NCBI GenBank assembly: GCA_031268685.1
Contig: JAIRWW010000078.1
Location: 1 to 21,991, forward strand
DNA length: 21,991 nucleotides
DNA from: Azoarcus sp.
Lineage (GTDB): Bacteria; Pseudomonadota; Gammaproteobacteria; Burkholderiales; Rhodocyclaceae
Direction: 5' to 3'
Below, one piece after another: positions 293-12,223 of the stretch. The notes beneath the pieces are model-generated. The model was not told where the DNA came from and did no database searches. It worked only from the letters and a program-made list of their open reading frames with translations. How positions within the stretch are numbered: position 1 is the stretch's first letter; the number at the start of each line of letters is the position of its first letter. The position numbers and the translations under genes were made by a program.

Positions 293-3200
293 TCACGCCG
301 ATACCCTCGCCTGCGGCGGCACGGGTGGATTCGTGCCAGGGCGATAGGTCGAATCGAACACCATGTCCGCCAGCCAACGGTTGAAGTTGGCGTTGTCGCT
401 GAACTGCTTGAATAGTTCGGTGTGGTCGTCCAGCAGTTCCAGCACCACGCGGTTGAGCGCCTTGTCGTGCTCCAGCCGCGCGTTCTGCTTGCCGGAATTG
501 GCCTGCGCGTTTCGGTACGCCTTGTCCTGCGCCACGCGCGCCGGGATTTCCTCGGTGATGACTTGTCTGATCTTGTCGGCATCGTGCCATTCGATGTCGC
601 CGAACAGGTCGTTGAACTGCTTGATGACGTTCGAAAGCTTGTCCAAGTCCGGTTCGCCGCCACCGCCACCGCCACCCGAAGGCGGCGGTTCGACGAAGGC
701 ATCCACATCGTCCAGAGCCATCTTCATTGCCGCCTGCGCCTGCGCGCGATAGCTGTCCATGTCGATGGCTTCCAGCACGCCCTTGGAGATGTCTTCCTCC
801 TTCGGCGCGGGCAACTTCGGGATCAGGAAGTTCAGGAAGATCGACAGCTTCTCCCAAGCCGGATGCCCGTAAGGCAGGATCGCCGACAGAAAGCCGTAGC
901 TGCGCACGAACGCTTTCGCCTTGCCCTTGAACTTGACTTGATCGTCCTCGCCGAGCTTGTCGGTGTATTCGGCCACGCAGACATCGAGAATAGGGTCGAG
1001 CTTGTCGCGGTCGGCGCCGGCCAGATACAGCGCCACGAAGTCGTCCACTTGGCTGCCGCTGTAAACCTGCTGCGCGTCCAGTTCGCTCTTGAGGTCGTGC
1101 AGTTTGTTCGGGTCGGTTTCGCCATCCTGAACCGTGGCGCGGTAATACTCCTGAAACGCCGCCTTCACGGCTTCGGCGTTGTCGGCGAAGTCCAGCACAA
1201 AGGTGTCCGCCTTCTGCGGGTGCGCCCGATTCAGGCGCGAGAGCGTCTGCACCGCCAGCACGCCAGCCAGTGGCTTGTCCACGTACATCGTGTGCAGCAA
1301 CGGTTCGTCGAAGCCGGTGACAAACTTGTTGGCGACGATCAGGAAGCGATACGGGTCAAGCTTCAGCTTGGCTGGAATGTCCTTGCTCGGGAACCCGTTG
1401 AGGTCGGCCTCGGTCTTCTTCGAGCCGCCGATCTCGAAGTCGCCGGAATACGCAACGATAGCCTTGTATGGGCTTTTGATCTCGGCAAGATAGTCCGACA
1501 CCTCGCGCCAGTAGTCGATGGCCCGCGCGATGCCGTTGCAGACGATCATCGCCCGCGCCTTGCCGCCGATCTTCTTCGCGCCGATCACCTGCGCGGTAAA
1601 GTGATCGACCATGATTTCGGCCTTGCGGCGGATGGCCTTGTCGTGCGACTCGACGTAGCGCCGGATTTTCTTCAGCGCCTTCAGCTTGTCCACCTGCGGG
1701 TCGTCCTCGATGGTTTTGGCGACGTGGTAGAAGCTGTCCACCGGCGTGTAGTTGGCGATCACGTCGAGGATGAAACCCTCCTGTATCGCCTGCTTGGTGG
1801 TGTAGGTCAGATCTTCCGGCGAGCGGAACTGCACCTTGTCGCCCACCGTCAGCCGTTCGCCGAACAACTCCAGCGTCTTGGTCTTCGGCGTGGCAGTAAA
1901 GGCGTAGTAGCTGGCGTTGGGCAGCAGCTTGCGCGATGCAATGCGCTTTTCGATTTCCGCATTCACCGCGTCCTGCGTGGAGTCTTCCTCGAAATCTTCT
2001 TCGTCGATCTTGCCGACGACCGATCCACCGAGAGCCTGATGCATCTTGGCCGTGGTCTTGCCGCCCTGACTGGAATGCGCCTCGTCGATCAGCAACGCGA
2101 ACTTCTTGTCACCCAAGTCGCCCAACTCGTCGAGGATAAAGGGGAACTTCTGCACCGTGGTGACGATGATCTTCTTGCCCCGGCGCAGGAAGTCGCGCAG
2201 TTCCTGCGCGTTGTCCGAATGGCTGAGGATCGAGGCCACATGGTCGTAGCCCTTGATGGTCTTGTGAATCTGGGTGTCCAGCGCGCGCCGGTCGGTGATG
2301 ACAATGACCGAATCGAACTGCGCCAGCGAGTCATCCGCCGCTGTTTTTAGTTCCACCAACTGGTGCGCCAGCCACGCAATGGTGTTGCTCTTGCCGCTGC
2401 CCGCCGAATGCTGCACAAGGTAGCGTTTACCCACGCCGTCGGCGCGACTGCGCCGCAACAGCGCGCGCACCGTGCGCAACTGGTGGAAGCGCGGGAACAC
2501 CGGCTTGCGCGTCTTGCGCTTCCTGCCGCTGGCGTCTTCTTCCTCGTCCTCCACCACCTGCGCGTAGTTCTCGATGATGTTGGCCAGCGAATCCTTCACC
2601 AGCACCTGCTTCCACAGGTAGTCGGTTTTGATGCCATTGGGGTTGAGCGGGTTGCCCGCGCCGCTATTCCAGCCTTGGTTGAACGGCAGGAACCACGAGG
2701 CCTTGCCCTTCAGCTCGGTGCAGAAGCGTACTTCGGCATCGTCCATAGCCATGTGCGCGATGCAGCGGCCCGGCTGGAACAGCAACTCCTTCGGGTCGCG
2801 CGTGGTCTGGTATTGGACGATGGCGTCCGCTACTGTCTGTTTGGTGAGCGAGTTCTTCAACTCGAAGGTCAGCACCGGCAGGCCGTTGATGAAAATCACC
2901 AAGTCCAGTTCGTTACCCGAATCATTGCTGTAGCGCACCTGCCGGGTGACGCTGAAGATGTTCTTGCCGAAGGCTTCGGCGGCGCTGGCGTTGCCCGGCG
3001 TCGGCAGCAGCTTGTAGAGATCGACCGTCATCGGCCCGTGGCTCACGCCCTTGCGCAGCACATCCACCACGCCGCGCTTGGCGATCTCGCCTTGCAGCCG
3101 GTGCAGGAACTGCGTGCGCTGGATGCCATCGACGGCGAGGTTCAGCGTTTCCACCGCCTTGGGCTGCGTGGCGTGCAGAAAGGCCAGCAGCTTCGCCACG

Positions 3201-3379
3201 TCCAGCGCCACGTCGCGGTTGTAGTCGCTGGCCCGGCCCAGCGCGTAGCCGCCGGGCGCATACACGGCCTCCGGTTTAGCAACGGCATTCGCGGGAACAG
3301 GCGGATGCTCGCTGATGCCCGCCAGATGGCGCACGATCAGCCGCTCCAGGCCCGATTCGCTGGTGTCGGTCTGTTTCAT
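293..3379 (-). CDS. hsdR: Type I restriction enzyme R subunit (HsdR)
   Basis: The 1028-residue protein is the translocase and endonuclease of a type I RM complex. It cuts unmodified DNA after ATP-driven translocation. The N-terminal nuclease carries the PD-(D/E)XK signature: D159 in NELDLVIF and E173-L-K175 in TFELKN. The SF2 motor shows Walker A SAGSGKS (325-331), DEAH (432-435), TATP (495-498) and a late SRLNRAHP arginine-finger motif. A Gly-run linker (PPPSGGGGGGGEPD) precedes the C-terminal helical domain that binds the methylase. The ATG at 3379 is chosen over the longer frame because it overlaps the stop of the upstream nuclease gene as ATGA, has a GAGGA ribosome site, and gives a normal HsdR length. 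No disrupting mutation is seen. Confidence 0.95.
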   Translation of the reverse strand: MKQTDTSESGLERLIVRHLAGISEHPPVPANAVAKPEAVYAPGGYALGRASDYNRDVALDVAKLLAFLHATQPKAVETLNLAVDGIQRTQFLHRLQGEIAKRGVVDVLRKGVSHGPMTVDLYKLLPTPGNASAAEAFGKNIFSVTRQVRYSNDSGNELDLVIFINGLPVLTFELKNSLTKQTVADAIVQYQTTRDPKELLFQPGRCIAHMAMDDAEVRFCTELKGKASWFLPFNQGWNSGAGNPLNPNGIKTDYLWKQVLVKDSLANIIENYAQVVEDEEEDASGRKRKTRKPVFPRFHQLRTVRALLRRSRADGVGKRYLVQHSAGSGKSNTIAWLAHQLVELKTAADDSLAQFDSVIVITDRRALDTQIHKTIKGYDHVASILSHSDNAQELRDFLRRGKKIIVTTVQKFPFILDELGDLGDKKFALLIDEAHSSQGGKTTAKMHQALGGSVVGKIDEEDFEEDSTQDAVNAEIEKRIASRKLLPNASYYAFTATPKTKTLELFGERLTVGDKVQFRSPEDLTYTTKQAIQEGFILDVIANYTPVDSFYHVAKTIEDDPQVDKLKALKKIRRYVESHDKAIRRKAEIMVDHFTAQVIGAKKIGGKARAMIVCNGIARAIDYWREVSDYLAEIKSPYKAIVAYSGDFEIGGSKKTEADLNGFPSKDIPAKLKLDPYRFLIVANKFVTGFDEPLLHTMYVDKPLAGVLAVQTLSRLNRAHPQKADTFVLDFADNAEAVKAAFQEYYRATVQDGETDPNKLHDLKSELDAQQVYSGSQVDDFVALYLAGADRDKLDPILDVCVAEYTDKLGEDDQVKFKGKAKAFVRSYGFLSAILPYGHPAWEKLSIFLNFLIPKLPAPKEEDISKGVLEAIDMDSYRAQAQAAMKMALDDVDAFVEPPPSGGGGGGGEPDLDKLSNVIKQFNDLFGDIEWHDADKIRQVITEEIPARVAQDKAYRNAQANSGKQNARLEHDKALNRVVLELLDDHTELFKQFSDNANFNRWLADMVFDSTYRPGTNPPVPPQARVSA

Positions 3380-4476
3380 GCGCCGTCCTCTTTCTTCTTG
3401 CCCGGCAGCAGCGCCTTGCGCCGTGCCACCTGTTCGCGCGCGCTTTCCAGCAAGGTGTGAATCCGGCGCTCGAACACAGGGCGTTCGGGGAACACTGTCC
3501 AATATTCGGCCACCATGATCTTGTCCCGATCCAGCGGCAGCAGTTCAATCTGCTCGCGGCTTTTTTCGGCGCACAAAATCAGGCCAATGGGCGCGTTTTC
3601 GCCTTCCTGCCGCTCGTAGCGGTCGAGCCAGCCAAGGTAAAGCTCCATCTGTCCCTTGTGCTTGGCCTCGAACTTCCCGATCTTCAATTCCACCGCCAAC
3701 AGGCGCTTGAGCCTGCGGTGGAAGAACAGCAGGTCGAGGTAGAAATCCTCGCCGTCGATGATCATGCGCTTCTGGCGTTCGACGAAGGAAAAGCCGCCGC
3801 CCAGTTCCAGAATGAACGCTTCCAGCTCACGCAGGATGGCGGTTTCGAGATCGGCTTCCAGATAGCCGTCGCGCAGCCCCAGCACGTCCAGCAGATAGGG
3901 GTCTTTGAAGGTGTTCGGTGGAATGTTGGAACTTTCCGGCAATTGCGCGTTGGCGATTTCTTTGCGCTCGAAGGCTTTGCGTGTGATGAGGTGACGCAGC
4001 CCGTCCCGGCCAAGCCGCCGGGATGCCGCTTCATTCAGATAGAACAAGCGGGCTTCGGGTGTTTTCAGCGGCAGCACCTCCACCACGTGCGCCCAGCTCA
4101 ATTGTGTAGCGGGCCGCGACACAATCTCGAAGTTGGGGAACTGCTCGGCGAACTGCATCATGCGGCGCAGGTTGCGCGCCTCGTAGCTGCGCCCGTAGCT
4201 GGCGGCCAATTGTGTAGCGAGCCGCGACACAATCTTCTCGCCGTATTCCGCGCGCTCATCGTGCAGAATTTCGCGGTTGATGCGCTGACCGATGCGCCAG
4301 AACAGATGCACCGTGGCGCTGTTGGCCTGCCGTATCAGGGCGCGGCGGGTTTCTTCGATGTAGCCCGCGACCGTGGCGAACAGATCGTTCGACGGCGCAA
4401 GCGCGATGGCCTGTCCTGCCTTCTTCGCGGGCTTCTTTGCAGGTGTCTTGCGGGTGGTTTTCTTACTCGTCGCCAT
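3376..4476 (-). CDS. DUF1016 family PD-(D/E)XK nuclease (YhcG-like)
   Basis: The 366-residue protein has a Lys-rich tail (MATSKKTTRKTPAKKPAKK), then the DUF1016 N-terminal helical domain (about 30-170, including RNLRRMMQFAEQFP and QLSWAHVVEVLPLK) and the C-terminal nuclease domain. The nuclease shows D248 in FYLDLLFFH and E263-L-K265 in AVELKIGKFE, the expected PD-(D/E)XK residues. Genes of this family often sit inside type I RM operons; their exact role there is not settled. The start at 4476 overlaps the end of the NADAR-HsdS gene by 14 bases, and the stop overlaps hsdR, suggesting translational coupling. Oddity: the peptide IVSRxATQL occurs twice (82-90 and 118-126), encoded by two near-identical palindromic DNA units, annotated separately. 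Confidence 0.9.
   Translation of the reverse strand: MATSKKTTRKTPAKKPAKKAGQAIALAPSNDLFATVAGYIEETRRALIRQANSATVHLFWRIGQRINREILHDERAEYGEKIVSRLATQLAASYGRSYEARNLRRMMQFAEQFPNFEIVSRPATQLSWAHVVEVLPLKTPEARLFYLNEAASRRLGRDGLRHLITRKAFERKEIANAQLPESSNIPPNTFKDPYLLDVLGLRDGYLEADLETAILRELEAFILELGGGFSFVERQKRMIIDGEDFYLDLLFFHRRLKRLLAVELKIGKFEAKHKGQMELYLGWLDRYERQEGENAPIGLILCAEKSREQIELLPLDRDKIMVAEYWTVFPERPVFERRIHTLLESAREQVARRKALLPGKKKEDGA
4099..4127. repeat. Palindromic in-gene repeat, copy 1
   Basis: A 29-bp unit inside the DUF1016 gene. It contains a near-perfect inverted repeat: ATTGTGT and ACACAAT arms with an inner GCG/CGC pair around a 3-base centre. It differs from copy 2 (4207-4235) at one position (G at 4112 versus A at 4220) and encodes IVSRPATQL on the minus strand. 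Confidence 0.85.
4207..4235. repeat. Palindromic in-gene repeat, copy 2
   Basis: Second copy of the 29-bp palindromic unit, with 28 of 29 bases identical to copy 1 and offset by exactly 108 bases (36 codons), so both are read in the same frame. It encodes IVSRLATQL. Confidence 0.85.
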
Positions 4477-6559
4477 CGGCGCTCTCCTCGGCGGGTTCGG
4501 CTTCATCATCGCCCAGCGCGGCCAGAACGTCGTCGTTGACGGCGTCGTCCGGGCCGGGCTGCCAGCCGCGCAGGTCAATCTGGCCGGTGACGGCATCGGC
4601 GATCAGGCGGTCGCGGTATTCGCGGATGAGGGCGATTTCGCTCCGAATCCTCTTGATGGCGGCATCCTGTTCTGCTGTCGCTGTTTGAAGCATGTCCAGA
4701 ATCCGATCCTGCTCGTCCAGCGGAGGGAGAGCGATTCGGAAGTTCTTGACGAAGCCGAGCGGCACACGCTGCTGGCCTGCGGCTCCTGTCATCGCATCGG
4801 CTCCGAGAACGCGGAACGTCCTGAGCGACAACAGCTTCGCCAAGAATGCCGGTCGAATTCGCCGCTCCGCTGCCCTGAGCACGATGAACTCCGTTGTGCC
4901 AAAGCCGATCTCGGTCGGTAGCGTATCGAGCAACCCGCCTTTCCCATTCTCGAAACACGGCGTGATCTTCGCCATCACCACATCGTTGCGGCGGAAGTAG
5001 GTGTAGCCCTCCCAAACCTCCGAGGTCTTTTTTTTTTCAACGCCTTGCAGCTTCCCATCCGTCGTGATGCACTCCATCGGAAGGAACGACACCGAGGCGT
5101 CGCTGAGGCGAAATGCAGTGCTTTCCGATCGCGACGGATTAGACACCGCAACATGCTTGAGCCTGCACGTTTCCCAATGCGCTGGGATGCGCGGAATCCA
5201 GTCGATTCCTGAGTTGCGCTTCTCCGTGGCAGCATCAAGACCTTGTGTCACCGCGCCTTCGATGATGGTTTGCTTCTGTTCGGTGAGCAGGCCGATGAGT
5301 TCGCGCTTGGCCTTGATGAAGCGGGCGATGTGCGCGTCCTGCGCACGCAGGTAGGCGACGATCTGGTCTTGTTCGGGGCGCGGGGGTTGAATCAGTGGAA
5401 TGTCGAGAAACTGGTTCGGATACAGGCGCAGGCGCGAGGCACGGATGCCAGTAGAACGCCCGATGTATTCGGCGACGTAGGCGCGAGTGCGCAGCAGGTA
5501 GTCGAGATAGGCCGGATTGAAGCTATCTGCGTTGTGCGGACGATAGACGCCATAAGCCGGGCTGACGATACCCGCGTGCTTGGCCGCGCCAAGCGCCGCC
5601 ATCCACGCCCACAAGGTATTGATAACGATGTCGCCCGGACGGCACAGCTTGGAGCCGACATAGCTCGCCGCCTTGAACATAGTGACGTTCTTCTGGCTGC
5701 GCGGCGTGACGCCAGTGAGGTGCGAGACGGACAGCAATTCCTCCTGCCCGGTGCGCGAGCGTTCGTCCACTTCGCGGAAGAAAGTCTTGGCGCGCTGCTC
5801 GTTCCAATGCTGCGGCACGGGCGGCAGCCAGCGCATACGCGCCGGGCGATAAGCTTCGTATGCCACTTCGCCGGGTGAGGCTGCAACCGGAGCCACCACC
5901 GCCTCGACGCTGACGGCAGCATCCGCGCCAAATAGGGAGCCTTGCTCCTGCTCGTCGGCAACCTGTGGCTGCGGTGAAGCTGCCGCCACTTCAATCGGTT
6001 GCCCGAACAGCAGGAATTGCGGGATGTCCGGCGGCGCAATGTCCAGCGCCACGTCACGCCCTTGCTGCTTCACCTGCTCGCGGAGCTCCATCAACAGCCT
6101 GCCCAGGACGTTCATGCCGACCAGCGTGCCGCCGTCGTCAACGACCTTGGCTCCCCAAAAATCGTCCTTGCGCGATTCCTCGACGATGGGGCGGTCGCCG
6201 GTTCTCAACAGCAGTTCGCTGAAGCTGTTCCAGTTGTTGGCCAGCTTCATGCGCAGACACCAGCGCATGAAGCGCACGCGCACCTGATCCCAATCGGGGC
6301 GCGAATCCTTGCGGTAGGGCTTGCTCCGCATCTTGGCCGTCATCGGGCTGATCTGGCCGATGATCATTTTCTGCACGTCGGGCAGGTGCGGGAAGCGGCA
6401 GACCTGATACAGCGCCTCGGAGGTCAGTACCCGCACGCCGTTCACACGGATGGGGTAGCCCCCGGCCATGTTGGAAAGGCCGCCGAACGGCTCGTCGGTC
6501 TTGAGAAAGACGACGCTGTCCTTTCGGCTGTAGGTGCGGGTCTGATCTTGTCCGCCCAT
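4463..6559 (-). CDS. hsdS: NADAR domain fused to type I specificity subunit (HsdS)
   Basis: The 698-residue protein is one uninterrupted frame. Residues about 14-162 form a NADAR (YbiA-like) domain: FGGLSNMAGGYPIRVNG, the TSE motif with E48, ISPMTAKM, RPDWDQVRVRFM, DDFWGA and GMNVLGRLLMELREQ line up with E. coli YbiA. NADAR enzymes are N-glycosidases or ADP-ribosyl hydrolases. A Pro/Ala-rich linker of about 75 residues follows. HsdS begins near 241 with two target recognition regions (RMRWLPPVPQHW and IDWIPRIPAHW), each followed by a long spacer helix (EQDQIVAYLRAQDAHIARF and EQDRILDMLQTATAEQDA). The ATG at 6559 shares one base with the upstream stop (TGATG) and has a GGAGG site. The longer reading into the upstream gene is a shadow. 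The fusion is unusual; the joint function is unknown. Confidence 0.93.
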   Translation of the reverse strand: MGGQDQTRTYSRKDSVVFLKTDEPFGGLSNMAGGYPIRVNGVRVLTSEALYQVCRFPHLPDVQKMIIGQISPMTAKMRSKPYRKDSRPDWDQVRVRFMRWCLRMKLANNWNSFSELLLRTGDRPIVEESRKDDFWGAKVVDDGGTLVGMNVLGRLLMELREQVKQQGRDVALDIAPPDIPQFLLFGQPIEVAAASPQPQVADEQEQGSLFGADAAVSVEAVVAPVAASPGEVAYEAYRPARMRWLPPVPQHWNEQRAKTFFREVDERSRTGQEELLSVSHLTGVTPRSQKNVTMFKAASYVGSKLCRPGDIVINTLWAWMAALGAAKHAGIVSPAYGVYRPHNADSFNPAYLDYLLRTRAYVAEYIGRSTGIRASRLRLYPNQFLDIPLIQPPRPEQDQIVAYLRAQDAHIARFIKAKRELIGLLTEQKQTIIEGAVTQGLDAATEKRNSGIDWIPRIPAHWETCRLKHVAVSNPSRSESTAFRLSDASVSFLPMECITTDGKLQGVEKKKTSEVWEGYTYFRRNDVVMAKITPCFENGKGGLLDTLPTEIGFGTTEFIVLRAAERRIRPAFLAKLLSLRTFRVLGADAMTGAAGQQRVPLGFVKNFRIALPPLDEQDRILDMLQTATAEQDAAIKRIRSEIALIREYRDRLIADAVTGQIDLRGWQPGPDDAVNDDVLAALGDDEAEPAEESADGDE
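5028..5037. repeat. Ten-base T/A homopolymer inside hsdS
   Basis: Ten T on the plus strand, ten A in the hsdS coding strand (GAA AAA AAA AAG, peptide EKKK), in the second target recognition region. Loss or gain of one base would truncate this region. The run is out of keeping with the GC-rich surroundings. Confidence 0.8.
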
Positions 6560-7590
6560 CAGAGATCGCCTCCGAAATCGGCGAACATCCTTCTTATCGC
6601 CGTCTGCGTGTTCGTGGTGCGCGGGAACAGCGGATACCACGGCGCATCCACCCAGAACGCCAGCGGCGTGTTGTTGGGGCAGTTGCGGTAGGTGACGATG
6701 AGCGAGCCAAAGCCCAGCGTTTCCAGCGTCATGTGCCCCAATGGGCGCTGGGTGTCTCCGAGACTGGGGCAAATCTGGCGGATGCGGACACCGGCCTTCA
6801 GAAACTCCTGCTCCAGCAGAATCTTGGCCGCGTCGCTGGAGAACAGGTTGGCGGTGCCGGGGTTGCCTGCGGTTCTGAGCATGGGCTGATACCGCATGGC
6901 ATCGACGTAGGCTTGCACCGCCGGATCGTTCGGGATCGCGGTCGGGCGCAGCACGTCCGCCGATGTGCTGTAGGCGCGCCTGTCCTCCAACTCGATGGCA
7001 TGCCACCAAGTGATGCCGACCTTCTTCCCAGAAGCCCTGATGACTTCCTGAATTTTGCCATTCGCGTAGTACTGCCCGCCGCTGTGCTGGGCGATGCAGA
7101 TCACATGCACCGTTGCCTGCGCGGGCGCGTGGTTACGAATCCAGTTCTCCAGATCGCGCCGCACGCGATTGCCGGTGAAGATGCCGTCATCCAGATAGAT
7201 GAACACTTCGTCGCCTTGCCCGCAGTCGCCGATGCCGATGCCATGCCCATCTTCCAGTTGCTCGGAGAACAAGGCGAGCATGTCGGTCTGGCTACTGCCG
7301 CCACCCTGAATGTCGAGAAAGCTGGCGGATCGCCAGAACTTGTCGGGCTTGTCGCCGGTGAGTTTCTGCGTGTGCATCGCGTCACGGAGAAACTTGGCCA
7401 CGCCCTTCTTCGAGAAGTAGATGTTCTTCAAGACGTGGTCGATCTCTTGCAGAATGGGCAACTGCACGGCAGCGTCGAACTGCTGCACCCAACGCCCGAC
7501 GTGGTCGGGGATGGGCTGCGGGAGCGAGTCGCCCCGGTAGTCTTGAATCGTGTTGGCGATGGACGCCAGAAGGTCGGTGCGCTGACTCAT
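6559..7590 (-). CDS. Phosphoribosyltransferase-like protein of a conflict system
   Basis: The 343-residue protein is not a housekeeping enzyme. Residues 128-140 (EVFIYLDDGIFTG) match the PRPP-binding loop of type I phosphoribosyltransferases: hydrophobic strand, two acids, then a T-G turn. The N-terminus carries a helical part with WVQQFDAAVQLPILQEIDHVLKNIYFSKK, seen in PRTase-like proteins of defence loci. The C-terminal part (FGSLIVTYRNCPNNTPLAFWVDAPWYPLFPR) resembles the tail of the same group. The start at 7590 overlaps the hsdM stop as ATGA, and its stop shares a base with the NADAR-HsdS start. Its place between hsdM and hsdS suggests it works with the NADAR domain on a ribosylated or PRPP-linked metabolite, but no substrate can be read from the sequence. 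Whether it is catalytic is uncertain. Confidence 0.75.
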   Translation of the reverse strand: MSQRTDLLASIANTIQDYRGDSLPQPIPDHVGRWVQQFDAAVQLPILQEIDHVLKNIYFSKKGVAKFLRDAMHTQKLTGDKPDKFWRSASFLDIQGGGSSQTDMLALFSEQLEDGHGIGIGDCGQGDEVFIYLDDGIFTGNRVRRDLENWIRNHAPAQATVHVICIAQHSGGQYYANGKIQEVIRASGKKVGITWWHAIELEDRRAYSTSADVLRPTAIPNDPAVQAYVDAMRYQPMLRTAGNPGTANLFSSDAAKILLEQEFLKAGVRIRQICPSLGDTQRPLGHMTLETLGFGSLIVTYRNCPNNTPLAFWVDAPWYPLFPRTTNTQTAIRRMFADFGGDL

Positions 7591-9965
7591 GCCGGGACGC
7601 CTCCCACGATCTTGTGCAGCAAACCTTCGGTCTGCTGCTCCAGTTTCAGGATGTCGGCGCGGATTTCTTCCAGCGTGCGCAGCGGCGCGGGGCGGTAGAA
7701 GTAGCGGGCGAAGGAGATTTCGTAGCCGATCTGGGTCTTCTCGCCGTCGATCCACGCATCGCCCGCGTGCGGCAAAACTTCGCGCCGGAAGAACGCTTCG
7801 ATACCGCCCGGCTCCTTCAGCGGCACCTGTTCGGTGTCGCGCAGTTCGGTGTCAGGCTCGTACCAGACAACTTCGCGACGCACACCTTCTCCGACCAGAT
7901 AACGTCCGTCGAAGCCCGGCTTGAAGCTCGCGTCTGGCTTGAGCCTGTGCCGCTTGGCGACCACCGGCGGCGCAATTTCGTCGCGCCAGCTCACGGCCTT
8001 GAAAATAACCTTCTTGTCCGCTGCGGAAGGTTTCCTGTCGTGCGCTTTCATCGCCGCGTCGAACTTGTCACGGAAGACGTTGTGGTCGTCGAATACGGCG
8101 TCGCCCAAATCCTTCTGCGCCAGCAGCGCCAGTTCGACCAGCGTCTTGTCGCGTTGCCATGTCGCCGCGTCCAGCAGCTTCTTGCGGCGCTTTTCCGGCA
8201 CGGCCTTTTGGGCGCGCGCGCTGGCATCAAAATCCTCGTCGCCGCTGTCGGTGTCCTCGTCGTCATTCTCGCCCTTGAGCCACGCCTCGATTTCAGGCTT
8301 CAGCTTGGCGAAGTCGGTGTAGAGCTTGTCGTCATGTTGAGCGTAAATCTCCGCACGCAAAGCTTCATCGCCCGATGCAAAGTGCAGGGTTTCGATGGCC
8401 GACGGCTTCAACTGGCTTTTCAGGCGCAGCGGGCGTTCGACGGTGATCTTCCAGTAGCCGAAGTCCTGCGTGTCGAACCATTTGGATTCGGCGGTTTCCT
8501 GCGCTTCGCCCAGATACAGGTCGAGAATGCGCTGGATGTCACTTTCCGAGAGTTCGCAGTTCTTCTTGCCGAGGTTGCGGCGCAGCGGCGCGAACCAACC
8601 GCTGGCATCGATCAACTGCACCTTGCCGCGCCGATGTTCGGCCTTGCGGTTGGCCAACACCCAGATATAGGTAGCGATGCCGGTGTTGTAGAAGATGTTG
8701 AGCGGCAGGGCGATGATGGCTTCCAGCCAGTCATTTTCCAGCACCCAGCGGCGGATGTTGCTTTCGCCCTGACCCGCGTCGCCTGTAAACAGCGCCGAGC
8801 CGTTGTGGACGAGGGCGATACGGCTGCCGAGCGCGTTGTCGTGCCGCATCTTAGAGAGCTTGTTCACAAGGAACATGAGCTGTCCGTCGCTGGAACGGGT
8901 GATGAGCCTGAATTCGGCCTCGCCGCCATGCTGGACGATGAAGCGCGGGTCGTTGAAACCCATTTTGCCACCCATGCGGTCGAGGTCGGTTTTCCAACTC
9001 TTGCCATAGGGCGGATTGGAGATCATGAAATCAAATTCGCGGCTGCGGAACTGGTCGGCGGAGAGCGTGGATTTGTCCGCGCCGCCGACGATGTGTTCGG
9101 CTTCATCCCCTTCGCCCTTCAAGAGCAGGTCGGCCTTGCAGATGGCGTAGGTTTCGGGGTTGATCTCCTGGCCGAAAAGATGCACAGCGACCTCTTTTCC
9201 GTGTTCATCGGCCAGTTCCTGCAAGACCTCCTCAGCCACGGTCAGCATGCCACCAGTGCCGCAACTGCCGTCATACAAGGTGTAGGCGCCGGACTGGATG
9301 CGCTCGGCCACGGGCAGGAACAGCAACTTCGCCATGAGCTTGACGACATCGCGCGGCGTGAAGTGCTCGCCCGCCTCTTCGTTGTTTTCTTCGTTGAAGC
9401 GACGGATCAGTTCCTCGAACACGGTGCCCATGCCGTGATTGTCCAGCGGCGGCAGTTTGATGCGCCCGTCGGCGTCCTTGATGGGCAAGGGCGAGAGATT
9501 GATTTCGGGGTCGAGGAAGTCTTCGATCAGATAGCCGAGGACGTGGGCGTCCACCAGCGTCTGAATCTGGTCGCGGAATTTGAACTTGGCGAGGATTTCC
9601 TGCACGTTGGGCGAGAAGCCATCGAGGTAAGCGATGAAGTCCTCGCGCAGACGCTGCCCCTGGCTGCTTGCCTTGAGCCTGGTCAACGTGAATTCGGAGG
9701 TGTTGTAGAAGGCTTGGCCCGCCGCCATGCGAAGCGCGCCGTCCTGCTCGGCCACCCTGTGCGCATCGAGGAACTTCTTGCGCTCCAGCACAGTCTGCTT
9801 GGCGGCTTCGAGCACGGCGTCCAGCCGCCGCAATACGGTAAAGGGTAGGATGACGTCACGGTACTTGCCGCGCACATAGACATCGCGCAGGCGGTCGTCG
9901 GCGATGTTCCAGATAAAGTCGGCGATCCACTTGATCTGGCTTTGGTCGTGTTGTTTTTTCTGCAT
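7587..9965 (-). CDS. hsdM: Type I DNA methyltransferase subunit (HsdM)
   Basis: The 792-residue protein transfers a methyl group from SAM to adenine N6 at the site chosen by HsdS. It shows the HsdM N-terminal helical domain (IKWIADFIWNIADDRLRDVY), HFTPRDVV (201-208), the SAM loop DGSCGTGGML (232-241) and the catalytic NPPY (317-320). It is much longer than the usual 500-540 residues: the C-terminal third holds an acidic stretch (ENDDEDTDSGDEDFD), then a domain ending YFYRPAPLRTLEEIRADILKLEQQ. The ATG at 9965 is chosen because the family often begins MQKKQHDQ and a GGAGAA site lies about 10 bases upstream; two in-frame ATGs at 9992 and 10013 are alternatives. It is the first gene of the operon. 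Confidence 0.95.
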   Translation of the reverse strand: MQKKQHDQSQIKWIADFIWNIADDRLRDVYVRGKYRDVILPFTVLRRLDAVLEAAKQTVLERKKFLDAHRVAEQDGALRMAAGQAFYNTSEFTLTRLKASSQGQRLREDFIAYLDGFSPNVQEILAKFKFRDQIQTLVDAHVLGYLIEDFLDPEINLSPLPIKDADGRIKLPPLDNHGMGTVFEELIRRFNEENNEEAGEHFTPRDVVKLMAKLLFLPVAERIQSGAYTLYDGSCGTGGMLTVAEEVLQELADEHGKEVAVHLFGQEINPETYAICKADLLLKGEGDEAEHIVGGADKSTLSADQFRSREFDFMISNPPYGKSWKTDLDRMGGKMGFNDPRFIVQHGGEAEFRLITRSSDGQLMFLVNKLSKMRHDNALGSRIALVHNGSALFTGDAGQGESNIRRWVLENDWLEAIIALPLNIFYNTGIATYIWVLANRKAEHRRGKVQLIDASGWFAPLRRNLGKKNCELSESDIQRILDLYLGEAQETAESKWFDTQDFGYWKITVERPLRLKSQLKPSAIETLHFASGDEALRAEIYAQHDDKLYTDFAKLKPEIEAWLKGENDDEDTDSGDEDFDASARAQKAVPEKRRKKLLDAATWQRDKTLVELALLAQKDLGDAVFDDHNVFRDKFDAAMKAHDRKPSAADKKVIFKAVSWRDEIAPPVVAKRHRLKPDASFKPGFDGRYLVGEGVRREVVWYEPDTELRDTEQVPLKEPGGIEAFFRREVLPHAGDAWIDGEKTQIGYEISFARYFYRPAPLRTLEEIRADILKLEQQTEGLLHKIVGGVPA

Positions 9966-10005
9966 AGAATCGAGTTCTCCGGTACTGGACATCCGTAACC
10001 GGCCA

Positions 10006-10045
10006 ATATTCACAATTTTGCATCGTACATCATCAACTCGATGAT
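10006..10045 (-). promoter_or_regulatory. Possible promoter and operator of the RM operon
   Basis: The 131-base gap between the recombinase and hsdM is AT-richer than its flanks. It contains a perfect inverted repeat ATCATC-5-GATGAT (10029-10045). On the minus strand TTGATG (10036-10031) is followed, after about 18 bases, by TGAATA (10012-10007), a weak -35/-10 match. The palindrome overlaps the -35, as an operator would. Weak evidence; no controller protein gene is seen. Confidence 0.3.
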
Positions 10046-10096: not shown

Positions 10097-10960
10097 TCAG
10101 GTACCCAAATAAACTGATGTTACCGCTATTCGCTCGTGTCCCAGTTCCCGGCTGATGCTTTGCCTCGCTTGGGCATCCTGTGTACGTTGCCCCTTCGTCA
10201 GGGAACAACGCGACGGTCCACCCGCCGCAGGCGCTTTCCATCCGGTCAGTGCTTCATAGCGCATTTGCGCGTAGCGATGCCGCAGTCCGTGCATGTTGGA
10301 GAGCCCCGCCGCCTTGCACTGCCCATCGTAAATGTTCCGTTGCTGGATATAGGTCTTGTGCGCCGGGATCAATGACCCTGGGCCCGCCAGCCGGTGGGCT
10401 TCGTCGAGTACGGCGCGTTGTTCCAGCGTTGTAATCGGCACCGTCCGCTCGCGCCCGCCCTTTGTCCATGAGCCCTTGAGGGCGATATAGCTGTCGCGGT
10501 CGGCATAGCTGGGCCGGAACTTGATGGATTCTTCCCGGCGCACCCCAAAGGCTGCCTGTAACCGAAGGCTCATGCGCACATATGGATCGGCGATCCTGTC
10601 CAACCCATCGCCCAGTTCCTTTGCCTTGTTCTCGCGGGACACATAGTGGCGTTCGGGGATGCCCAATTGAGTGTTCTCCGCCGGAAGAATGCCCGCCTTG
10701 CCGATTTTTTCGGCCCACCAGCGCAGGTGTGAAAGGCGGTTCTTCAATGTGCCAGTGGCCAGACCCTCTGCCTGCCAGCGTTGCAGCAGGACGTCGACAT
10801 GTTTGCCCTTGAGCGAGGTCGCGCGCATCTGCCGGAATCCTGCCTCATGCAGTTGGCGAGCCGCGAGAGTTAGAAAGCCTTGGCGGTCAGCCTGCGTGGC
10901 ATGGCTACCATCACGATTGCGCTGGCAAAGCTGGCGCAGAGTGTAGGTCAAGTCGTCCAT
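10097..10960 (-). CDS. Tyrosine recombinase / integrase
   Basis: The 287-residue protein has an N-terminal SAM-like core-binding domain (about 1-110) and a C-terminal catalytic domain with the tyrosine recombinase residues: R141 in AAFGVRREE, a probable K167 in SWTKGGRERTVPI, H224-x-x-R227 in HGLRHRY, H275 in LGHERI and nucleophile Y284 in TSVYLGT, three residues from the end. The pattern fits the Phage_int_SAM_2 plus Integrase_1 class carried by genomic islands. The ATG at 10960 has GGAGAAACC upstream. It is codirectional with hsdM and lies 131 bases before it, with a tRNA-Pro 1.2 kb further upstream, so it is the likely integration enzyme, past or present, of this island. All catalytic residues appear intact. 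Confidence 0.9.
   Translation of the reverse strand: MDDLTYTLRQLCQRNRDGSHATQADRQGFLTLAARQLHEAGFRQMRATSLKGKHVDVLLQRWQAEGLATGTLKNRLSHLRWWAEKIGKAGILPAENTQLGIPERHYVSRENKAKELGDGLDRIADPYVRMSLRLQAAFGVRREESIKFRPSYADRDSYIALKGSWTKGGRERTVPITTLEQRAVLDEAHRLAGPGSLIPAHKTYIQQRNIYDGQCKAAGLSNMHGLRHRYAQMRYEALTGWKAPAAGGPSRCSLTKGQRTQDAQARQSISRELGHERIAVTSVYLGT

Positions 10961-12145: not shown

Positions 12146-12223
<78 letters not shown>

Follow-up and report, generated by a model that had tools for sequence, protein, structure and literature searches.

A DS-32-type phosphoribosyltransferase–NADAR pair set into a type I restriction operon between hsdM and hsdS, with the NADAR joined to HsdS

According to two reports (PMC11543638, PMC11125620), NADAR proteins remove ADP-ribose from guanine and serve as the antitoxins to DarT1 and YarT. 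Phosphoribosyltransferases (PRTases) are named as effectors of type III retrons in PMC12548924. A pair made of the two is already known by name: NCBIfam describes DS32_1 as a 'phosphoribosyltransferase-like anti-phage protein' and DS32_2 as a 'NADAR family anti-phage protein', these descriptions being our only source for the anti-phage label. We equate DS32 with DS-32 of DefensePredictor by name only, the latter not being spelled out in the accessible text of PMC13092281. Here we describe such a pair in a stretch of 21,991 nucleotides from Azoarcus sp. (contig JAIRWW010000078.1; hereafter the window), where it forms part of a type I restriction-modification operon, following hsdM and preceding hsdS, with its NADAR joined to the N-terminus of HsdS.

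The PRTase-CE protein of 343 residues (positions 6559..7590, minus strand) scores 417.4 bits with DS32_1 (NF053875; cut-off 250). It carries the 5-phosphoribosyl-1-pyrophosphate (PRPP) loop YLDDGIFTGNR and shows a PRTase fold by structure comparison. Both proteins of the window exceed the cut-offs of their families and their genes are adjacent, the PRTase first, as in DS-32. The NADAR of the window is fused to HsdS within a type I operon, whereas the E. coli pair that we inspected, although identical in its two Pfam domains and their order, stands alone inside a lambdoid prophage and has no restriction genes within 6 kb. A Klebsiella PRTase–NADAR pair also exceeds both DS32 cut-offs; at the DNA level its NADAR part has a match in 62 of 5426 E. 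coli genomes (66% in those listed). The gene immediately upstream of the fusion was overlooked in an earlier note on this DNA, which took NADAR plus HsdS as the unit. The NADAR does ride on the DNA-recognition subunit, but the true unit is the PRTase–NADAR pair, which is also found without HsdS.

Two further families of systems invite comparison. As in DarT1–NADAR (DarTG1) and YarT–YbiA, a NADAR lies beside an enzyme that possibly adds a ribosyl group to nucleic acid. In the window, however, this neighbour is a PRPP-type PRTase rather than an NAD-dependent ADP-ribosyltransferase (ART), and the NADAR differs by changed adenosine contacts, a clamp-type motif and the HsdS fusion. No DarT or ART gene flanks it: PRTase-CE (206 bits) lies upstream and a DUF1016 gene downstream. 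With the PRTase effectors of type III-A retrons the window PRTase shares only a C-terminal stretch, the PADLOC PRTase_III-A model matching residues 265-329 alone (best 43.5 bits). Its partner is a NADAR, not a winged-helix protein, and there is no reverse transcriptase among the six window genes scanned by profile.

The NADAR–HsdS gene (4463..6559, minus strand) is a single open frame of 698 codons from ATG to TAA, just as the earlier note had read it. Its NADAR domain (residues 16-163; 6071..6514) is complete: Pfam NADAR matches residues 18-163 (E 2.1e-22, 80.6 bits; cut-off 35.1) and DS32_2 (NF053876) residues 8-189 (276.6 bits; cut-off 240). The lack of a NADAR profile match, which that note had envisaged as fatal to its proposal, thus did not materialize, and every motif it listed is present (TSE with E48, RPDW, DDFWGA and GMNVLGRLLMELR). 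The domain is marked by residues E48, R55, W90, R94, E127, D132, W135 and N150. A linker follows (residues 164-232; 5864..6070), of which residues 194-232 are predicted to be disordered, with a predicted local distance difference test (pLDDT) value below 50 in an AlphaFold2 model. The remainder is the HsdS part, with two target recognition domains (residues 233-671; 4547..5863). PADLOC Specificity_I spans all of it, and the match to Pfam Methylase_S is limited to residues 556-642.

The AlphaFold2 model of the whole chain (mean pLDDT 78.7) combines a NADAR fold, the disordered linker and a two-domain HsdS, bearing out the architecture first proposed. In Foldseek comparisons its target template modelling (TM) score is 0.73 with the NADAR 2b3w and 0.63 with 8bau. 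The ten best solved HsdS chains give target TM scores of 0.37-0.61, with large root-mean-square deviations across the flexible whole. We rejected a sequencing-error join of the two parts, the other objection foreseen, because the fusion recurs in 41 of 80 related loci and because the best-listed matches of a protein search include 88 NADAR proteins longer than 600 residues, one of them that of the window.

These loci come from a scan of the PRTase alignment against one genome per species, of which the best 80 of 82 were used; the tree and the residue counts leave out two at contig ends (L022, L054) and one that is a piece of the window (L081). A whole NADAR directly follows the PRTase in 78 of the 80, the other two being cut by contig ends: L022 breaks off within a NADAR whose start is visible, and L054 shows nothing of one. 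Fusion to HsdS is seen in 41 loci, a standalone NADAR in 31 and fusion to a DUF1156 methylase in six (L026, L033, L035, L039, L073 and L076). The fusions thus sit on the modification side, and none of the 47 fused loci has its NADAR on HsdR or a helicase. Above cut-off the two families are found in the same genomes, where they lie side by side each time: 4 in a sample of 369 from the class and 3 in an overlapping sample of 398 from the phylum, each number including the window's own genome. Twelve genomes of chosen loci have one DS32_2 match each.

The DUF1156 fusion was run through PADLOC for L026 and L033 and scored as HmaB each time. Applied to parts of the six loci, PADLOC also finds HmaA-type helicases in L033, L035, L039, L073 and L076 and, among the genes run, HmaC in L033, L039 and L076. 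These loci resemble the Hma and DUF499 'BR' systems, as far as the accessible text of PMC8565338 and PMC12839542 describes them. Their fusion partner is a methylase, not HsdS, and theirs is not the system of the window. The latter article, a 2026 survey of BREX and DUF499 systems, catalogues back-up nuclease effectors in the parts available to us; a term search of its main text returned neither NADAR nor PRTase. In the literature outside preprints, most subscription papers and supplements, we found no text on NADAR–HsdS or NADAR–HmaB.

Two loci are worth recording separately. In Thermaurantiacus (L018:10032-10790) a standalone NADAR without the tail motif described below accompanies a PRTase that nests among those of HsdS-fused loci, possibly a lost fusion. 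On a Vibrio parahaemolyticus plasmid (L115:3105-4600) a NADAR (198 bits to DS32_2, below the cut-off) lies directly behind a Dam-family adenine methylase, another NADAR–methylase pairing, with no PRTase match.

The module has been added to an otherwise ordinary type I system. HsdM matches at E up to 1e-100 occur in 39 of the 369 genomes, and only three of them adjoin a PRTase (in G000, G200:C45 and G334:C38). Three relatives without the module (G125, G136 and G334:C48) have an HsdM 81-82% identical; in them hsdM and hsdS overlap at their ends and hsdR follows, in G125 after two other open reading frames (ORFs). One genome, G334, carries both forms of the operon. HsdS proteins of about 472 residues that lack the NADAR start at the end of the fusion's linker and reach 92% identity over 67% of the query. 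The window has all three type I subunits, and it differs from an ordinary system by the PRTase between hsdM and hsdS and the NADAR on HsdS.

We placed the catalytic residues E48, R55 (Lys to Arg) and E127 by alignment to 8bau and 2b3w; they correspond to E88, K95 and D171 of the E. coli C7 NADAR and to E43, K50 and E125 of P. nicotianae NADAR. Across 79 NADAR rows (78 loci and the window, all three architectures), E48, E127, W135, G136 and N150 are unchanged and R55, at the position of the catalytic lysine, is Arg in 78. The Lys-to-Arg change at this position in C7 NADAR keeps hydrolysis in vitro. In the ADP-ribose-bound structure of P. nicotianae NADAR (8bau), the distal ribose is held by E43 and E125, both retained here. 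The phosphate-binding residues are retained or conservatively replaced: Arg stands at the K50 position, Lys or Arg at that of R79 in 78 of 79, Trp at W89 in 78, Arg at R93 in 76 and Lys in three, Trp at W133 in all and Asp at D130 in 73. Most catalytic and phosphate-binding positions are thus common to the window and to the NADARs of the DarT1 and YarT systems.

The adenosine contacts are altered with respect to 8bau, the position of Y84 being Tyr in none of the 79 rows and that of D86 being Arg in all. YbiA likewise has Arg at the second of these positions. Its known substrates are riboflavin precursors, which are phosphoribosylated. On the enzymatic partner's side, the PRPP loop Y[LI]DD..F[TSG]G is retained in the listed PRTase variants, and both Asp, the Phe and the final Gly are invariant in 51 aligned PRTases. 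The changed contacts fit a phosphoribosyl ligand and do not amount to proof. As the PRTase is also inseparable from the NADAR, we favour a phosphoribosyl substrate over the ADP-ribose-type signal suggested in the earlier note, which is still conceivable.

Residues 206-210 of the disordered linker (QGSLF; 5930..5944, minus strand) form a predicted sliding-clamp-binding motif, found by motif comparison: a peptide of the QxxLF type in a flexible segment. Similar clamp-binding peptides are known (QADMF, QLDLF and QLSLPL in the accessible text of PMC4703070). Despite the disorder of this region, 46 fused proteins all keep Q206, L209 and F210. In the locus set, 35 of 42 HsdS fusions (window included) and 14 of 31 standalone NADARs have a Q-x-x-L-F behind the domain, compared with 1.0-2.3% in shuffles. 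Among the long fusions listed by the protein search, 87 of 88 have it, a count made with no shuffle comparison. It is also found in 54 of 91 proteins of up to 260 residues (1.5% in shuffles), in 41 of these no more than 12 residues from the C-terminus, and in 0 of 91 inside the domain. These 91 are the proteins of that length with a domain match out of 120 listed, and some may be fragments of fusions; three of the 54 are truncated entries matching by a QFLLF near the domain, leaving 51 without them. The same QFLLF fits the pattern in L001-L005, L007 and the window, each of which has QGSLF as well. Other NADARs have the motif in 0 of 25 cases. The E. coli pair comes close with a NADAR ending in QSLSLF, as does the Klebsiella NADAR, which ends near QILLL.

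We tentatively favour, among several readings, one in which the PRTase marks DNA with a phosphoribosyl group and the NADAR erases this mark, the eraser travelling with the self-marking complex and thereby guarding it. The pair would be a writer and an eraser, a toxin–antitoxin-like unit working on DNA with the PRTase as the presumed toxic half. The latter would transfer 5-phosphoribose from PRPP to an exocyclic base amine, and the NADAR would hydrolyse the resulting N-glycosidic bond, much as the DarT1-linked NADAR acts on ADP-ribosyl-guanine and YbiA on riboflavin precursors. Standalone NADARs would dock on the sliding clamp by their C-terminal QxxLF and so keep replicating self DNA clean. 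In the window the eraser would belong to the HsdM/HsdS complex and therefore go wherever the methylase goes. If a phage disabled or overwhelmed this complex, by DNA mimics or incoming unmethylated DNA, the PRTase marks would persist and replication would stop. The outcome would be a back-up guarding the restriction system; the guard logic of PrrC in EcoprrI is comparable.

What leads us to place a writer and an eraser on DNA is the bond chemistry of the two enzymes, together with the PRTase effectors of retrons, the presence of the clamp-type motif and the joining of the NADAR to two kinds of DNA-methylation machine. Gene order and fusion are observed, as are the coupling of the pair, the retained active-site residues and the motif; the substrate, the toxic half, the binding to the clamp and the guard role are inferred. 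PRTases form with 5-phosphoribose the same kind of bond that NADARs cleave. Occurrence of one NADAR type on both methylation machines, together with the motif, narrows the search for its substrate: instead of 'some ADP-ribose derivative', one would look for a mark on (replicating) DNA, with PRPP as the donor that the PRTase partner suggests. A defence pair of obscure biochemistry is thereby tied to DNA, and the recurrence of the fusion in many bacteria hints at reversible DNA marking of an undescribed kind. If true, this would add a new DNA modification and a way of guarding restriction enzymes, and would offer a simple assay for the roles of NADAR and PRTase proteins in immunity. Reversible chemistry on a DNA base, one of the proposals of the earlier note, is our leading idea as well. 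Its tie to the recognition site is less supported, since the NADARs of L001-L008 are 89-92% identical to that of the window while the linker and HsdS behind them are only 40-58% identical, and since standalone NADARs occur without HsdS. More doubtfully, PRTase-CE might be a PRPP-dependent writer on DNA or nucleic-acid bases and DS-32 NADARs its dedicated erasers, acting via clamp, HsdS or methylase, in a module that self-guards methylation-based defences and poisons replication when a phage knocks them out. We know of no description of such PRPP-dependent base-marking chemistry.

Several observations speak against the proposed marking and its erasure. To our knowledge no phosphoribosylation of DNA has been described. 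The Lys-to-Arg variant of C7 NADAR fails to rescue cells from DarT1, and changing E88 of C7 NADAR to Ala (E48 here) affected activity in vitro only slightly. In vitro, NADARs of the YbiA type and of phages likewise take ADP-ribose off guanosine, so the pocket leaves the substrate undecided. The strict Q-x-x-L-F is absent from all six DUF1156 fusions and from 17 of the 31 standalone tails. In the wider family, NADARs are met without a PRTase: only three of nine plasmid NADAR matches (E up to 1e-20) share a record with a PRTase match. Many rows of the census are close relatives, which inflates its counts. Guarding is moreover an added assumption, because standalone DS-32 pairs have no HsdS.

It is unlikely, on balance, that the NADAR is itself the effector, an N-glycosidase destroying an essential nucleotide or cofactor once the restriction complex encounters foreign DNA, with the PRTase as a brake or a salvager of the product. 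NADARs do act as N-glycosidases on riboflavin intermediates, the PRTase and the DS-32-type NADAR occur together, and in 15 HsdS-fused loci (L049-L079) the NADAR is the better conserved half, with 61-74% identity to the window's compared with 40-48% for the PRTase. Next to its characterised partners, DarT1 and YarT, a NADAR is nevertheless the antitoxin; here it is fused to the modification side, and a clamp-type motif would be odd in an enzyme of metabolites.

A NADAR placed on HsdS might instead strip ribosyl or ADP-ribosyl groups, made by phage or host, from bases, allowing the type I enzyme both to read and to cut the DNA, the PRTase handling the released group or marking DNA for it. The known action of NADARs on ADP-ribosylated guanine in DNA agrees with this. 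We hold it distinctly unlikely in view of the 31 standalone and six DUF1156-fused NADARs that have no HsdS, and of the E. coli prophage pair with its surroundings free of restriction genes.

There is a small chance that the domain is a gate, binding or hydrolysing a nucleotide signal that the PRTase makes (of the ADP-ribose or phosphoribosyl type) and so switching methylation or restriction. The adjacent PRTase could produce the ligand and the linker could transmit the change, but conservation of E48, E127 and W135 in every row exceeds what a mere sensor needs, and the pair is found without HsdS.

We give a slighter chance to a restriction operon that simply nests defence cargo, the fusion having no joint function. 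Varied cargo does occur in the same operons. A 598-residue gene lies between hsdM and the PRTase in L013 (7160-8956), L049 (7161-8957) and L030 (2691-4487), of the GmrSD_N type in the first two and unclassified in the third; McrBC (L031), Schlafen-AlbA (L032) and DUF1828/1829 (L009) genes lie between NADAR-hsdS and hsdR, and DUF1016 is another such addition. All these are separate ORFs, whereas the NADAR is in frame with HsdS in 41 of 80 loci and with a DUF1156 methylase in six. A quickly built PRTase tree requires eight changes of the HsdS label, at least four of them forced by starred branches, and six for the DUF1156-fused rows, which do not cluster, at least two of these forced. Finally, a restriction glycosylase cutting base–sugar bonds at unmethylated sites in the manner of PabI is highly improbable: NADARs are N-glycosidases and base-excision restriction enzymes exist, but PabI has its own HALFPIPE fold (both according to the accessible text of PMC10273834), known NADARs cut a ribose–base amine bond rather than a base–deoxyribose bond, and all HsdR domains are present.

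The locus encodes a complete type I restriction-modification system in one operon, with predicted site-specific methylation and ATP-dependent cutting activities. All its genes lie on the minus strand, in the order hsdM (7587..10013), PRTase, NADAR-hsdS, the gene of a DUF1016/YhcG PD-(D/E)XK nuclease (3376..4476; PADLOC PDC-S02) and hsdR (293..3382; start codon position chosen by us), the last two and hsdM being assigned by profile matches. The hsdM stop overlaps the PRTase start in ATGA, and the PRTase stop overlaps the start of NADAR-hsdS in TGATG, the pair being translationally coupled. The operon may be an island at tRNA-Pro(GGG) (12146-12222, minus strand), because an integrase gene (10097-10960, minus strand; Phage_int_SAM_2/Integrase_1) separates it from that tRNA; a repeat of the tRNA region was sought within the window and none was found. 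The nuclease is an accessory gene of the operon, and DUF1016-like ORFs also occur in L002 and in G136, whose operon (L150) lacks the module.

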